From Siculibacillus lacustris (GTDB lineage Bacteria > Pseudomonadota > Alphaproteobacteria > Rhizobiales > Ancalomicrobiaceae): DNA of 64,000 nt. Below are positions 1,825-33,077 of the stretch, piece by piece. The notes below the pieces were generated by a model. The model did no database searches, was not told where the DNA came from, and saw only the letters and a list, made by a program, of their open reading frames with translations. Position 1 is the stretch's first letter, and each line of letters starts with the position of its first letter. Position numbers and translations under genes: made by a program. Location of the stretch: the NCBI RefSeq assembly GCF_004328075.1, contig NZ_SJFN01000016.1, forward strand, positions 1 through 64,000. Direction: 5' to 3'.

Positions 1825-2915
1825 TCGATCTCTACCGCCTGCTGCGGCCCCTGGTGTTCCGTCTCGATCCCGAAGTCGCCCACGGCCTGACCATTCGCGC
1901 CCTGGCGACGGTGCCCTTCCCGCGCTTCGGGGGTCCCGCCGATCCGCGGCTGGCGGTCGAGGCCTTCGGCCTGCATTTCCCCGATCCGGTCGGCATCGCC
2001 GCCGGCTTCGACAAGAATGCCGAGGCGCCGGACGCCCTGCTGCGTCTGGGCTGCGGCCATGTCGAGATCGGCACCGTGACGCCGCGCCCCCAGCCGGGCA
2101 ACCCCAGGCCCCGCCTGTTTCGCCTGCCCGCCGACGAGGCGGTGGTCAATCGCTTCGGCTTCAACAACCAGGGCCATGCCGCGGTCGCCGCCCGCCTGGC
2201 GAAGCGGCGCGGCCGTCCCGGCCTGATCGGCGTCAACATCGGCGCCAACAAGGACTCGGTCGACCGCGTCGCCGACTACGTCGCCGGCATCGAGGCCTTC
2301 GCCGATCTCGCCGCCTTCTTCACCGTCAACGTCTCCTCGCCCAACACGCCGGGCCTGCGCGATCTCCAGGGCCGCGCGGCGCTCGCCGAACTGCTCGGCC
2401 GGACGCTCGCCGCCCGCGATGCGGTGGCGACGCGCGTCGGGCGCCGCGTGCCGGTGCTGCTCAAGATCGCCCCGGATCTCGACGACGCCGGCCTCGCCGA
2501 TGTCGCGGCCGAAGTCCTCGCCGCCGGCGTCGACGGTCTGGTGGTCTCCAACACCACCCTCGACCGCGGCGGCCTGACCGATCCGGTCGGCGCGCGCGAA
2601 TCGGGTGGCTTGTCCGGACGGCCGCTGTTCCATCGCGCGACCGTGATGCTCGCCCGCCTGCGCCGGCTGGTCGGCCCGACCCTGCCGATCGTCGGGGTCG
2701 GCGGCATCGATTCGGTCGATACCGCCTGGGAGAAGATCGCCGCCGGCGCCAACCTGATCCAGGTCTATTCGGGGCTGGTCTACGCCGGACCGTTCCTGCC
2801 GGCGCGGATCCGCAAGGGTCTCGCCGCCCGGCTGACCCGCGAGGGTCTCGGCTCGATCGGCGAGCTGGTCGGCACCCGCACCGACGTCTGGGCGGAGCGC
2901 GACCCGCGCGGCTGA
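1821..2915 (+). CDS. pyrD: Dihydroorotate dehydrogenase, class 2 (quinone)
   Basis: A 364-residue FMN enzyme that oxidises dihydroorotate to orotate in de novo pyrimidine synthesis and passes electrons to the membrane quinone pool. The amphipathic N-terminal segment ([20 protein letters not shown]) is the membrane-associating helix of class 2 enzymes. [15 protein letters not shown] carries the catalytic Ser region. KIAPDL, VSNTT and GVGGI are the FMN and phosphate-binding strands of the TIM barrel. The length is typical of class 2. Translation starts at GTG overlapping the DUF952 stop, so expression is coupled to it. Confidence 0.97.
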
Positions 2916-2947
2916 GCGGCGGGCGGGAGGCGAGGGGGCCGGAGATC

Positions 2948-3877
2948 ATGCTGCTCTATCTGCCGATCGCCGAATGGCCGGTCGAGATGTTCGCGATCTT
3001 CGGCCTCGGCGCGGCGGTCGGCTTCGTCTCGGGGATGTTCGGGGTCGGCGGCGGCTTCCTGCTGACCCCGCTGCTGGTCTTCGCCGGGATCTCGCCGGCG
3101 GTTGCGGTCGCCACCGTCTCGGCCCAGGTGGTCGCCTCCTCGACCTCCGGGGCGCTGGCCTATTGGCGGCGCGGCGCCATCGACTGGAAACTCGCGACCT
3201 ACCTGCTCACCGCCGGCATGGCCGGGTCGGGCGTCGGCGTCTGGGTCTTCGCGGCGCTGCGCCGGTTCGGCCAGCTCGATCTGGTGATCGCCCTCTGCTA
3301 CGTCGTGTTCCTCGGCTCGGTCGGCGCCTTCATGGTCGGGGAATCGCTGCGCGCCCTGTGGTCGGCCCATCGCGGCGAGGTCGTGCCGCCCCGTCGGCCG
3401 AGCCCGACCGGTTGGCTGCGCACGCTCCCCCTGCAGGTCGCCTTCCCGCGCTCGCGGCTGGAGATCTCGGCCGTGCCGGTGATCGCGCTGGGCCTGGGGA
3501 TCGGCTTTCTCGGCACGTTGCTCGGCATCGGCGGCGGCTTCCTGATCGTCCCGGCGCTGATCTACCTGCTGCGCGTGCCGTCCAATCTGGTGGTCGGCAC
3601 CTCGCTGGTGCAGATGGTCGCGACCATGGCCTTCGCCACCTTTCTCCAGGCCGCCGCCAACCAGACCGTCGATCTGGTGCTCGGGCTGTTGCTGATGGTC
3701 GGCGGGGTGATCGGCGCCCAATTCGGCGCCGAGGTCGGCCGGCGCCTGCGCGGCGAACATCTCCGGGCGCTGCTCGGCCTGTTGATCCTGGCGGTCGGCG
3801 CCCGCTTCGCGGTCGAGCTGGTGGTGCCGCCGGCCGAGGTCTACACCATCTCCCGCGTCGTCGGGGGTGCCCCGTGA
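2948..3877 (+). CDS. TauE/SafE family membrane transporter
   Basis: A 309-residue polytopic protein with two homologous halves, each containing the family's glycine-rich loop (GFVSGMFGVGGGFLLTP near residue 25 and GTLLGIGGGFLIVP near residue 190). About eight hydrophobic helices are visible. The TauE/SafE family exports sulfonates, sulfite or related organic anions, but the substrate here cannot be read from sequence. GGAG lies just before the ATG. The stop overlaps the GTG of the next gene, a TIGR02186 membrane protein that repeatedly accompanies TauE in alphaproteobacteria, which suggests the two act together. Confidence 0.9.
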   Translation: MLLYLPIAEWPVEMFAIFGLGAAVGFVSGMFGVGGGFLLTPLLVFAGISPAVAVATVSAQVVASSTSGALAYWRRGAIDWKLATYLLTAGMAGSGVGVWVFAALRRFGQLDLVIALCYVVFLGSVGAFMVGESLRALWSAHRGEVVPPRRPSPTGWLRTLPLQVAFPRSRLEISAVPVIALGLGIGFLGTLLGIGGGFLIVPALIYLLRVPSNLVVGTSLVQMVATMAFATFLQAAANQTVDLVLGLLLMVGGVIGAQFGAEVGRRLRGEHLRALLGLLILAVGARFAVELVVPPAEVYTISRVVGGAP

Positions 3878-4644
3878 GCCGCACCCGCGCTGCCCGCGCC
3901 CTGGCCTTCGCCCTCGCCACTGCTGCGCCGGTGCCGGTCGCCGCCGAGACCCTGGTGGCGGCGCTGTCGCGCGACCGGGTGTCGATCGAATCGAACTTCA
4001 CCGGCACCGAGGTCACGGTGTTCGGCACCATCGAGGCCGATCCGAACGACCCTCCGCGCCCGCGCGGCTGGGATGTGGTGGTCAGCCTCACCGGGCCGCG
4101 CCGCGCCGTGGTGGTGCGCCGCAAGGAGCCGGTCGCCGGCCTGTGGATCAACCGCGAGTCCCTGGTGATCGCCGACGTGCCGCTGTTCGCGGCGGTCGCC
4201 TCGACCCTGCCGCTCGACCGGGTCACCGATGCCGCCACCGCCGCCCGGCTCGGGCTCGGCCGGGCCGGCTTCGCCGGCACCGTCACCGAAGCCGCCGACG
4301 CCCGCACCGCCGCCTTCCGCCTCGCCCTGCACCGGCTGCAGTCGAGCAACGGCCGCTGGGCCGAGCAGCCGACCGGCGTCACCTTTCTCGGCCGCCGGCT
4401 GTTCAGCGCGACCCTGCCGATTCCCGCCGACGTGCCGATCGGCCCCTATCGGGCGCGCGTCACCCTCTTCGCCGACGGCCGGCCGCTCGCCGACCAGACC
4501 CTCGATCTGATCGTCGCCAAGTCGGGCTTCGAACAGGGGGTCGCCGACCTCGCGACCCATCGGCCGATCCTCTACGGGCTGCTCGCCGTGGCGATGGCGC
4601 TGGTCACCGGCTGGCTCGGCGGCGTGCTGTTTCGTCGCGATTGA
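3874..4644 (+). CDS. TIGR02186 family membrane-anchored protein
   Basis: A 256-residue protein with an N-terminal signal peptide (cleavage probably after PVAAA), an extracytoplasmic region with ESNFTGTEVTVFG near residue 40 and KEPVAGLWINRES near residue 85, and one C-terminal helix (LLAVAMALVTGWLGGVLF) ending in Arg-Arg-Asp. The features match TIGR02186, conserved alphaproteobacterial proteins of unknown function. The GTG start overlaps the transporter stop (GTGA), so it is translationally coupled and may be an accessory subunit. Its 3' end overlaps the convergent pdeM gene by 41 nt. Confidence 0.85.
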   Translation: MSRTRAARALAFALATAAPVPVAAETLVAALSRDRVSIESNFTGTEVTVFGTIEADPNDPPRPRGWDVVVSLTGPRRAVVVRRKEPVAGLWINRESLVIADVPLFAAVASTLPLDRVTDAATAARLGLGRAGFAGTVTEAADARTAAFRLALHRLQSSNGRWAEQPTGVTFLGRRLFSATLPIPADVPIGPYRARVTLFADGRPLADQTLDLIVAKSGFEQGVADLATHRPILYGLLAVAMALVTGWLGGVLFRRD

Positions 4645-29186: not shown

Positions 29187-30131
29187 TCAGGCCGCGGTCG
29201 CGGCAGCCACGTCGGCCTCGAGGCCGAAGGCGCGGGCGGCGTTCAGCGACACCATCTTGCGAATCTGGGCGTCGTCGTAACCGAGTTCGAGGCACAGCTT
29301 CACGCCCCGCCGGAAGCCTTCGAGCGGGCTGAAGACGCCGACCTGTCCGAGGTCGGAGCACAGGATGGTCTGATCGGGGCCGGCGGCCTCGATCTGGTCG
29401 CGCAGGTCCTCGGTGGAGCGCGTCTTGAACTTCGACCCCTCGAGGAACATGCACAGCGAGTGCTCTGCGAAGACGCCCTGCGCGGCGAGGTCGCGTACGT
29501 CGCCGAGCGTCGCTTCGACGATGTCCTCCGGATGGGTCAGGATCAGCGCCCGAACGCCGCGGCGGCGCGCCTCTTCGAACACCAACAGGGTCTCGGAGAT
29601 GTGGAGATGGCCGCTCTCCAGGGCGAGTCCCGTGCGGGCGACCGCGTCGAGGATCTCCTTGGTCGCGTCGTTGACCCGGCCGGCGCCGTCGAGCACCGGC
29701 ACGGCCGACGCGGCGCGGATCTTCTGCGTCGAGGCGGGATGAACCCAACCCGACGTCTTCTCCCACTTCAGATGATGCGCCGCGGCCAGCGTCGGCATGA
29801 ACACCACCTTGCCGCCCATGGCGGCGGTGTGCTCGACGGCATAGGGGTTGAGACCCCCGACGACGTTGTTGAGGGCAATCCCCGAGTAGACCTTGGTCTT
29901 CAGCTCGGGGAAGTTCGCGGCGATCAATGCGGCGGTCATGACGCCGGCATAGTCGTGATCCTTGGTGATCACCGCGGCGAAACCGGCCGCCGACATCTGC
30001 CGCGCCAACGCCAGATGATCGAGCGCGCGCGCCGCGATCGATGGTCCGGAATGGACGTGGGGATCGATCGCGCCGACGAGCAGACGATCGACGTGGGCCT
30101 CGAGTTCTTCGGTGTCATGGGCCATGGACAT
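29187..30131 (-). CDS. DUF6282 family metal-dependent hydrolase-like protein (copy 1)
   Basis: A 314-residue cytoplasmic protein of the DUF6282 type, related to amidohydrolases. The pattern AIDPHVHSGPS near residue 20 supplies H-x-H, ITKDHDYAG a further His near residue 55, ESGHLHISE a second H-x-H near residue 170 and LTHPED another His near residue 195, consistent with a metal centre in a TIM barrel. CSDLGQVG near residue 260 holds a candidate catalytic Asp. Family reactions are unknown. It is last in a minus-strand operon beginning at 33824, and its paralogue lies two genes upstream (31167), with the same motifs and order throughout. Confidence 0.8.
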   Translation of the reverse strand: MSMAHDTEELEAHVDRLLVGAIDPHVHSGPSIAARALDHLALARQMSAAGFAAVITKDHDYAGVMTAALIAANFPELKTKVYSGIALNNVVGGLNPYAVEHTAAMGGKVVFMPTLAAAHHLKWEKTSGWVHPASTQKIRAASAVPVLDGAGRVNDATKEILDAVARTGLALESGHLHISETLLVFEEARRRGVRALILTHPEDIVEATLGDVRDLAAQGVFAEHSLCMFLEGSKFKTRSTEDLRDQIEAAGPDQTILCSDLGQVGVFSPLEGFRRGVKLCLELGYDDAQIRKMVSLNAARAFGLEADVAAATAA

Positions 30132-30173
30132 GGGATCTTCCTCGGGTTTTCGGGAACGGACCGGGCCGCGGGG

Positions 30174-30821
30174 TCAGGCCGCCGCGACGATGTCGGAGAG
30201 GCGTTGCGCCCAGGCGGCGAGCATCGCGGCGCGGGCGCCGTCGTCGACGCGCGGCGCCGCATAGGCGACGAACGGGTCGAGGACCTTCATGCCGAGATAT
30301 TCGAGCGCCAGACGCTGGACCGGCCACAGCACCTTCTCGATCGGGCCGTAGGCGTCGCCCTCGGAGAAGCGCTTGGGGGTCCCGCCGGTGGTGAGCGCGC
30401 AGACGGCGGTCTTGCCCGCCAACAGGCCGCTCTCGAACCGCGTACCGTCGCGATAGGCGAAGCCGAAGGCGAGGACGCGGTCGAACCACCCCTTGAGGAT
30501 CGCCGGCGGCGCCCCCCACCAGATCGGGAAATGCAGGACGAGGAGATCGGCCGCGGCGAGCCGCCGTTGCTCGCGGAGGATCTCGGGCGCGAAGCCGTTC
30601 TCGGCCGCCGCCAGCGCCTGTTCGCTCTGGTAGTGGAAGCGCTCGGGATCGGCGACGGTGGTGAAGTCACCCCGGCCACCGACCGGGTCGAACCCTTCGG
30701 CGTAGAGGTCGGAGACCGCGACGACGTGGCCGGCGGCACCGGCGGTGGCCACGGTGGTGTCCTTGAGCGCCGCCGTGAAGGAGCGGGGTTCGGGATGGGC
30801 ATGGACGACGAGGAGGTTCAT
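30174..30821 (-). CDS. Flavodoxin-like NAD(P)H-dependent oxidoreductase
   Basis: A 215-residue protein of the NQO1/KefF/MdaB flavodoxin-like family. VVHAHPEPRSFTAAL near residue 5 binds FMN or FAD phosphate, LHFPIWWGAPPAILKGWFD near residue 95 is the family signature, and LTTGGTP completes the flavin site. Such enzymes reduce quinones or electrophilic intermediates with NAD(P)H. Here it sits within a catabolic operon, so it probably acts on a pathway intermediate. Its ATG overlaps the stop of the preceding interrupted small frame as ATGA, which supports translation of that frame. Confidence 0.88.
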   Translation of the reverse strand: MNLLVVHAHPEPRSFTAALKDTTVATAGAAGHVVAVSDLYAEGFDPVGGRGDFTTVADPERFHYQSEQALAAAENGFAPEILREQRRLAAADLLVLHFPIWWGAPPAILKGWFDRVLAFGFAYRDGTRFESGLLAGKTAVCALTTGGTPKRFSEGDAYGPIEKVLWPVQRLALEYLGMKVLDPFVAYAAPRVDDGARAAMLAAWAQRLSDIVAAA

Positions 30822-31141
30822 CGCGGTCTTTCGTCGAGGTGGGTCGGCCGATCCAGGGCGTCGGGGGGCGCGCATCCGAACGCCCGGGAGACCCATCGGC
30901 CGAGGGATTGAGTGAGCGGAACGCCGTGACGACGGACGGCGGCCCTGAGCTGTTCGGCGGCTCCCGCGTCGGGGATCGCCATGCGCGTCACACGATCTGC
31001 GACGACGATGTCGACGCCGAGGGACTCGCCCCGCCCGAAGGCGACACAACCGGTCGCCCGGGCGAGGACGGCGTCGAGGGCGGTCGGATCCCATCCGCGC
31101 AGCTTCGGTTCGGCGTCCGGTAGGAGATGCTATCCGTCCAT
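30818..31141 (-). pseudogene. Small gene of the DUF6282 operon with an amber codon at position 4
   Basis: From an ATG at 31141, with GGAGG 7 nt upstream, the frame reads M-D-G, then TAG (31132-31130), then runs open for 103 codons with strongly G+C-biased third positions to a TGA at 30818 that overlaps the next ATG as ATGA. The translated part (LARATGCVAFGRGESLG, IVVADRVTRMAIPDAG, HGVPLTQSLGRWVSRAFG) looks like a compact protein, but I recognise no family. It sits between the second DUF6282 gene and the oxidoreductase. It may be a recent nonsense mutant (TAC to TAG would restore Tyr), a sequencing error, or start at an internal GTG/ATG giving about 57 residues. Confidence 0.55.
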
Positions 31142-31166
31142 CTCGGACCCTCCGGGCCGCAGCCGC

Positions 31167-32108
31167 TCAGGGCAGATCGAGACCGATCAGCGCCCGCGCG
31201 TTGGTCGAGATCATCTTGCGGATGTCGGCGTCCGAACAGCCGATGGTCAGGCAGGTCGAGATCACCGAGCGGAAGCCGTCGGCGATGGTCGGGTTGCCCT
31301 TCTGGCCGAGATCCGAGCCGAGGATGGTGCGATCGACGCCGGCGGCTTCGATCAGCTCCTTCAGGAACTCGGTGGTGTAGAAGCAGAACTTCGATTCCGG
31401 CACCCACATGCACATCGAGTGTTCGACATAGACGCCCATTTCGGCGAGCCGGCGCACGTCCGGAAGGGTCGCGTCGACGACGAAGGTCGGGTGGTTGCAC
31501 AGGAGGCGTTTGACGCCGCGCGCCTTGGCCTCCTCGAACAGCGGCCAGATCTCCGAGATGTGGAGATGTCCGGAGGAGAGAACGATGTCGGCCTCGGCGA
31601 TCAGGTCGAGGATCGGCCCGACCTCGGGGCGCAGCTTCCCGGCCTCGTCGACCACGGTCAGCGGCGTCGGATGGAGCATCTTCTTGGCGGTCTGCGGGAA
31701 CTTCTTCTCGAACGCCTCCTGCTCCTTCTTGTGGTGGTCGATGTGATTCTTCGACGAGAAGGTCGGCATCCACACCAGCCGGGCGCCGAGCTTGATGCCG
31801 TGTTCGACCGCATAGATGTTGAGGCCGCCGGTGGTGTTGTTGAGCGGCACACCGGAGAGCAGGGTCACGCCGAGATGGCCGAAGTGCTTGTTGAGCATCT
31901 CGGTGATCGGCGTTGCCGAATAATAGTGATCCTTGAGCAGCAGCGCGGCGATCCCGGCGTCGGCCGCCTCGTGCATGGCTTCGATGTGGTCGCAATAGCG
32001 CGGCATCACCGAAGGGCCGGAATGGCAGTGGAGGTCGACGGCGCCCTTCAGGAGGTCCTCGATATGGGCGGGGTCATGGGCGGTGGCGACGGGAGCGACG
32101 GTGGTCAT
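31167..32108 (-). CDS. DUF6282 family metal-dependent hydrolase-like protein (copy 2)
   Basis: A 313-residue paralogue of the 29187 gene with the same landmarks: AVDLHCHSGPS near residue 25, LLKDHYYSA near residue 58, SSGHLHISE near residue 175, LCNHPTFV near residue 200 and GSDLGQKG near residue 265. The two copies share the motif order over the full length but are clearly diverged, suggesting related but different substrates or a heteromer. The ATG at 32108 has AAGGA upstream. It follows the cupin gene by 38 nt and precedes the interrupted small gene by 25 nt, so it belongs to the same operon. Confidence 0.82.
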   Translation of the reverse strand: MTTVAPVATAHDPAHIEDLLKGAVDLHCHSGPSVMPRYCDHIEAMHEAADAGIAALLLKDHYYSATPITEMLNKHFGHLGVTLLSGVPLNNTTGGLNIYAVEHGIKLGARLVWMPTFSSKNHIDHHKKEQEAFEKKFPQTAKKMLHPTPLTVVDEAGKLRPEVGPILDLIAEADIVLSSGHLHISEIWPLFEEAKARGVKRLLCNHPTFVVDATLPDVRRLAEMGVYVEHSMCMWVPESKFCFYTTEFLKELIEAAGVDRTILGSDLGQKGNPTIADGFRSVISTCLTIGCSDADIRKMISTNARALIGLDLP

Positions 32109-32146: not shown

Positions 32147-32995
32147 TCAGGCGGCGGTCGACGGCATCGGATAGTCGGCGGCGTTGCGGACCACGCCCTG
32201 CTGGGCGAAATCGAAGCGCGGCGGTGCGAAGACGTCGACGAGACGTCCCATCCGGCCGGTCGAACGGCTGGTGTGGACGATGGTCGGCGGGATCACGGTG
32301 AGCGACGGGCTGCCGATGGCGGCATGGAGATCGTCGCGCCAGTCGTCGAGATCCGGGGTCCAGGGCGTGCGCAGGTGGTGCAGCCAGTCGCTCTCGAGCG
32401 CCAGCGAACCCTGTTCGAAATCGCCGTGGGAATGGGGGCTGAGTTTGTGGACGTCGCGCGGCTCGAGCCACGGCACCAACGGATTGACCATCAGGTTGCG
32501 GGTCTGGAAGACGCGCAGGAACGAGCCCGGGGTGACGTGTTCGGCGAGCCGATAGGCGCGCAGCCGATAGCCGCCGACCGGTTCCGGCCAACTCGTCAGC
32601 GGCGCGACCAGCGGCGCGCCGTCGGCATAGTCGGCGGCGTTGGCGGCCTTCGCCAGGATGTCCGCGGCTTCGCCGGAAAACACCCGCACGAGACGGCCGG
32701 CCGAGAGCACCTCGATGCGGCTGGCGCCGGGCGGCACGATCACCAGCATGTCGGGCTCGACCTCGACCGTCTCGCCGCCGGCGACGATGCGCAGCGAGAG
32801 ATCGTTGCTGAGGACGACGTATTCGTCCGGGTTGGCGGCGCGTTCGAGCACCGCGCCGGCCGCGACCTGCGAGACGGCGGTGGCGAAATTGGCGCCGCGG
32901 CCGATCCAGGTGGCGACGCCCGGGCCGGTCTCCACCGGCGGCGTGTCGTAGAAGGCGAGGAGCGCGGGGGCGAGCGGGCGGGATGTCTTCGACAT
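32147..32995 (-). CDS. Cupin-type protein (two-cupin arrangement)
   Basis: A 282-residue protein. The N-terminal half has a degenerate cupin pattern (NPDEYVVLSNDLSLRIV, then DMLVIVPPGASRIEV) without obvious metal ligands. The C-terminal half has KLSPHSHGDFEQGSLALE near residue 195, giving the H-x-H and E ligands of cupin motif 1, and VIPPTIVHTSR near residue 245, giving the His of motif 2. One functional metal site is therefore likely. Cupins in such operons may be dioxygenases, isomerases or hydroxylases. The reaction is unknown. The gene lies between the aldolase and DUF6282 copy 2. Confidence 0.7.
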   Translation of the reverse strand: MSKTSRPLAPALLAFYDTPPVETGPGVATWIGRGANFATAVSQVAAGAVLERAANPDEYVVLSNDLSLRIVAGGETVEVEPDMLVIVPPGASRIEVLSAGRLVRVFSGEAADILAKAANAADYADGAPLVAPLTSWPEPVGGYRLRAYRLAEHVTPGSFLRVFQTRNLMVNPLVPWLEPRDVHKLSPHSHGDFEQGSLALESDWLHHLRTPWTPDLDDWRDDLHAAIGSPSLTVIPPTIVHTSRSTGRMGRLVDVFAPPRFDFAQQGVVRNAADYPMPSTAA

Positions 32996-33077
32996 GTCGA
33001 ACTCCGTGGACGGAAAATTGGTGGGTCGCGCGCCCCGATCGCGCCGCGCCGATCGGCCGGCGGAGGGCGCGAGCGTC

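Follow-up and report, generated by a model that had tools for sequence, protein, structure and literature searches.

The DUF6282 gene and the flavodoxin-fold gene of this cluster are separated by 345 bases that are neither an ordinary resident gene nor an ordinary spacer: the open frame they carry scores below called genes, yet its codon-position contrast and frame score stand high against shuffled sequences, other gaps and the wrong frames of genes. Our leading explanation, held tentatively and with rather less than even confidence, is that the interval is specific to this lineage and carries a small ORF, atypical in composition and now disabled, that has its own ribosome-binding site. It ranks only slightly ahead of a frame left open by chance. 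Taken as a whole, the interval has most likely lost its function or never had one.

Layout of the locus

The genes concerned lie within the window, i.e. the whole stretch of 64,000 nucleotides that was analyzed, from the draft assembly (5.02 Mb in 99 contigs) of an environmental alphaproteobacterium (Table 1). The letters on which the first-pass annotation was built are all present on the minus strand, namely the GGAGG (31153–31149), a gap of seven bases, the ATG (31141–31139), GAC GGA, the TAG (31132–31130) and the ATGA overlap (30821–30818) made by the TGA of the small frame and the start of the flavodoxin-fold gene. The frame is indeed missed both by a mechanical list of ORFs of 60 aa or more and by a best-start gene model. 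The start of the flavodoxin-fold gene agrees with all 12 of the other genome matches listed, which align from residue 1.

The two DUF6282 genes of the cluster (29187–32108) are 44% identical and are the only two DUF6282 matches of the genome; no mention of this family was found in the literature searched. A "cupin" label for 32147–33007 was unsupported, as NCBIfam and Pfam gave no match.

Table 1. Features at the DUF6282–flavodoxin-fold junction (window coordinates)
Feature	Position	Strand	Evidence
DUF6282 gene (amidohydrolase-like), 313 aa, upstream	31167..32108	-	Pfam PF19799, E 8.9e-73
Interval separating the DUF6282 and flavodoxin-fold genes, 345 bases	30822..31166	-	Nothing alike at the junction in relatives
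GGAGG, Shine-Dalgarno-like, 7 bases ahead of ATG	31149..31153	-	Sequence and site frequency
ATG GAC GGA TAG, start and amber stop as codon 4	31130..31141	-	Sequence
103 sense codons past the amber (31129-30821) and TGA (30820-30818)	30818..31129	-	Weak coding periodicity; no convincing homologue
Flavodoxin-fold gene (NAD(P)H oxidoreductase-like), 215 aa, downstream	30174..30821	-	Pfam PF02525, E 2.3e-48
DUF6282 gene, second in the cluster, 314 aa	29187..30131	-	Pfam PF19799, E 1.9e-63

Coding signal of the frame

At about 70% G+C, the length of an open frame, its third-position G+C and an ATGA overlap can jointly look over-convincing. The count of 103 clean codons after the stop is correct (31129–30821), but their openness is not unusual, this frame being open in 36% of 5000 dinucleotide shuffles of the 309 bases and at least one of the six frames in 95%. 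Likewise, the third positions had been described as strongly G+C; at 0.78 (0.81/0.57/0.78 by codon position) they lie below the first positions and below the third positions of five cluster genes (0.88–0.92), so that the value is not distinctive. What does stand out is the contrast between codon positions (0.218), which was matched in only 2 of the 5000 shuffles, in tests that were themselves selected once the frame had been seen. The antisense frame is very similar in its G+C pattern (0.78/0.57/0.81); it scores −0.144 bits per codon and found no homologue in 297 genomes besides its own.

Coding potential was scored with a Markov model (three-periodic, order 3) for which 464 kb of this genome served as training data. 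In the first version of the model, the five cluster genes reached 0.40–0.49 bits per codon and the frame 0.007. With an improved model, based on 409 genes called from their best-scoring starts, the frame fell to −0.059 bits per codon, a value as low as which was reached by none of 982 chunks of called genes (≥150 codons), and among 48 short called genes the minimum was 0.20, against −0.06 for the frame; this gap is somewhat overstated, since gene calling itself favors high scores. The first gene set had placed 5.6% of 808 gene chunks as low or lower, a figure that overstated the case for coding because the set held over-extended ORFs. Compared with noncoding phases, the frame does better: in the five wrong frames of called genes, its score is reached by 0, 0, 15, 0 and 19 of the 982 chunks. 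Along the frame, the coding signal weakens over the last third.

Among 107 gaps of at least 200 bases, the interval comes second by best open-frame score and sixth by contrast. Some of the gaps that rank above it contain long open frames and may hide missed genes. Elsewhere in the same genome, L079:14426-15139 and L086:8751-11133 hold uncalled open frames of 226 and 789 codons, which are possibly genes of atypical composition.

The start signal was examined by site frequency. A scan of the 464 kb for GGAGG-N5-9-ATG gives 83 sites, of which 40 lie at or near called starts and in frame, 34 inside genes and nine in gaps. The nine gap sites fall in 64,962 gap bases, counted on both strands, and include the site of the frame itself and some that are probably real starts; about 0.02 would be expected on one strand of the interval. 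Furthermore, the GGAGG-ATG and the periodic signal share one reading frame.

These results bear in different ways on the proposal that a gene-like frame is interrupted at codon 4, which is supported by the codon periodicity and the placed GGAGG-ATG and is undercut by a score below that of called genes. The idea of a fresh pseudogene fares worse. A recently broken resident gene should keep codon statistics like those of its neighbors, and this frame does not. The results are also compatible with a noncoding spacer that was never a gene, in which the frame is open by chance and the GGAGG-ATG is a coincidence, an explanation that we consider a serious contender and rank a close second. Open frames are expected at such a composition, the score lies under that of every called-gene chunk and convincing homologues were not found (see below); the contrast seen in only two shuffles and the high rank among the 107 gaps argue against it, as does the lack of any other visible role for a spacer. 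Indeed, neither promoter nor terminator was found in 30700–31300 (the promoter being scored by sigma-70 consensus only), Rfam gave five matches with E up to 1, each of them under the gathering score of its family, and a structured RNA was rejected with a fold z-score of 0.01, no better than shuffles.

Amber stop and translation

A ribosome starting at 31141 would make three residues and end at the amber codon. Translation of the frame up to the ATGA overlap, as read from these letters, would thus seem disfavored by a stop at codon 4. Of 47 tRNA-family matches in the genome, ARAGORN confirmed 46, and none of these 46 has a CTA (CUA) anticodon, the feature of a UAG-reading tRNA that amber recoding or suppression would call for. 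Of the called genes, 394 have their stop inside the stretch read (15 more run off) and 9 of these use TAG, so it works as a stop here. An internal start, which had also been suggested, has little support: past the stop, GTG and ATG first appear in frame as codons 51 and 54, respectively, and the 18 bases preceding an in-frame CTG at codon 14 contain no GGAGG. Together, the early amber, the lack of a CTA tRNA among the 46, the ordinary use of TAG and the distance of the in-frame starts make a protein product from the long frame unlikely.

The same observations weigh on the possibility that the small gene is live and translated in spite of the amber, through low-level read-through or a nonstandard downstream start. 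It can draw on 103 codons with no further stop and on a GGAGG-ATG whose reading frame is that of the periodic signal; the remaining openness is itself likely chance, and with the tRNA set and start codons just described we regard a live gene as improbable. The TAG could instead be a sequencing or assembly error, the gene being intact in the living cell. Any TAG lies one substitution from a sense codon and the assembly is a draft in 99 contigs. Base errors are rare in an assembled consensus, and an error at one codon would leave the weak codon statistics of the remaining frame unexplained, so we give this explanation very little weight.

In six gene pairs tested in one study, upstream coupling was almost abolished at about 20 bases (PMC10666635). 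Given this loss of coupling with distance, translation of the flavodoxin-fold gene probably begins independently at its own ATG.

Homologue searches and other identities

Searches for the frame gave no convincing homologue at any level. In a collection of contigs restricted to close relatives, from which near records of the own genome were possibly omitted, 594 pattern stretches yielded none that was confirmed. The genus-level search covered the own genome alone, and the 14 other genomes of the family gave a best E of 0.0138 (limit 10). Samples of the order (397 genomes including the own) and of the class (385, likewise including the own), in which the best 12 candidates or fewer were scored per genome, added two and three weak other matches, none of them convincing; one order match (L042) has two stops inside. 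A separate match, of E 0.006, lies in L172. Three matches, identified by eye, were judged to be chance: an ABC-transporter region, a histone-deacetylase-like protein and, in one class genome, a PtsP-like protein with 29% identity over residues 2–90 and an E of 2.6e-4 per genome with 385 genomes searched. Plasmids and phages held no convincing homologue of the frame, and none of 29 stretches from viral contigs was confirmed. Profile and structure databases returned only subthreshold matches (Pfam 0.12, PHROGs 0.49, NCBIfam 0.58, PDB 1.4), and an AlphaFold2 model from the single sequence was uninformative (mean pLDDT 41). Within the search scopes used, therefore, a homologue outside the narrow lineage was not found, as for an orphan.

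The interval itself gave only short matches against 15 relatives, the best covering 37 bases at 89% (E 1.2e-6). Repeated or duplicated DNA was rejected as an identity, the own genome offering nothing better than E 0.0105 besides the interval itself (40 of 209 candidates scored).

The junction in relatives

Synteny was examined in the 80 best of 559 flavodoxin-fold loci and in 5 of 11 further stretches chosen for the same gene order. DUF6282 lies upstream on the same strand in 23 of these 85 loci, of which 21 are distinct (L061/L101 and L060/L108 are, by their length, the same contigs). The gene order seen here is thus shared with 21 loci of other bacteria, but the 345 bases between the genes contrast with the spacings found there: −4 to 25 bases in seven loci, 65–68 in two, 137 in one, 261 in one, 950–983 in seven and 1525–1711 in three. 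A Massilia MAG (L112), whose DUF6282 is the closest of those fetched (68%), has both genes overlapping directly through ATGA. In two members of the family (G012 and G014) the genes lie on opposite strands with about 7 kb between them.

The contents of the longer junctions differ from one locus to another. The one of 261 bases holds an inverted repeat recognized by eye (L056:2776-3038). Each of the seven junctions of 950–983 bases holds one gene of 309–310 aa, and the two checked by Pfam are BKACE. Among the three of 1525–1711 bases, one holds a DDE transposase domain and two hold other genes of the cluster. The frame was also considered as a BKACE-type remnant and this was rejected: a seven-sequence profile scored it at −1.9 bits (of 2000 shuffles made, 1389 were reported, and 328 of these reached that score), and its pairwise scores were reached by 69–168 of 300 shuffles.

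When the frame was compared by tblastn with the 21 distinct loci, no match was obtained (E up to 1 in one search, below 0.1 in the other). The absence of homologues at syntenic loci had been named beforehand as counting against a pseudogene, and it does weaken that claim; an orphan gene is still compatible with it.

The exact fit of the frame into the operon, on which the first-pass annotation relied, holds as far as the ATGA overlap is concerned. It is weak evidence, since the ATGA is the start of the flavodoxin-fold gene itself and the frame is unmatched in these loci. Here, the ATGA arises because the flavodoxin-fold gene begins ATG AAC, and for a frame to meet it in phase is a one-in-three matter. 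The starts in the 21 loci are ATGA in seven, ATGC in nine, TTGA in one and extrapolated from the alignment in four (L116, L118, L120 and L121), so that a third of these relatives start with ATGA although this small ORF is missing there. This point adds to the case for a chance frame, the overlap being dictated by the downstream gene.

A disabled orphan ORF as the preferred reading

Coming back to a disabled orphan ORF, the 345-base DNA would be a feature of the DUF6282–flavodoxin junction in this lineage, the same not having been seen there in the relatives examined, and it may have been gained by insertion rather than lost elsewhere. The ORF may once have been translated; with the amber halting translation after three residues, it would no longer yield protein. 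The flavodoxin-fold gene would now use its own start, uncoupled from any translated upstream frame. By contrast, continued production of a small protein specific to this lineage, by a noncanonical start or read-through, which would keep the flavodoxin-fold gene coupled after the interval split DUF6282 off, appears to us very improbable.

The frame resembles bacterial pseudogenes with an early nonsense codon in having a start and a ribosome-binding site, a premature stop (TAG at codon 4) and, after it, a long open stretch that escapes a mechanical ORF list, but its codon statistics fall short of those expected from a resident gene broken recently. The searches turned up no intact homologue carrying a sense codon in place of the TAG, and pseudogene status is thus an inference. 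With ORFan small genes it shares the lack of a convincing homologue, the short length, the atypical composition and the lineage-specific interval; unlike them, it has a stop at codon 4 and is known from its sequence alone. If real, it would add to the orphan small ORFs within operons that an early stop has disabled, and would matter chiefly to annotation.

The DUF6282–flavodoxin junction varies a lot among lineages. Genes that overlap directly, an inverted repeat, a transposase and a BKACE-type gene are the variants seen across L056, L057 (reverse complement, 2727–4253), L100, L103, L109, L115, L116, L120 and L121.
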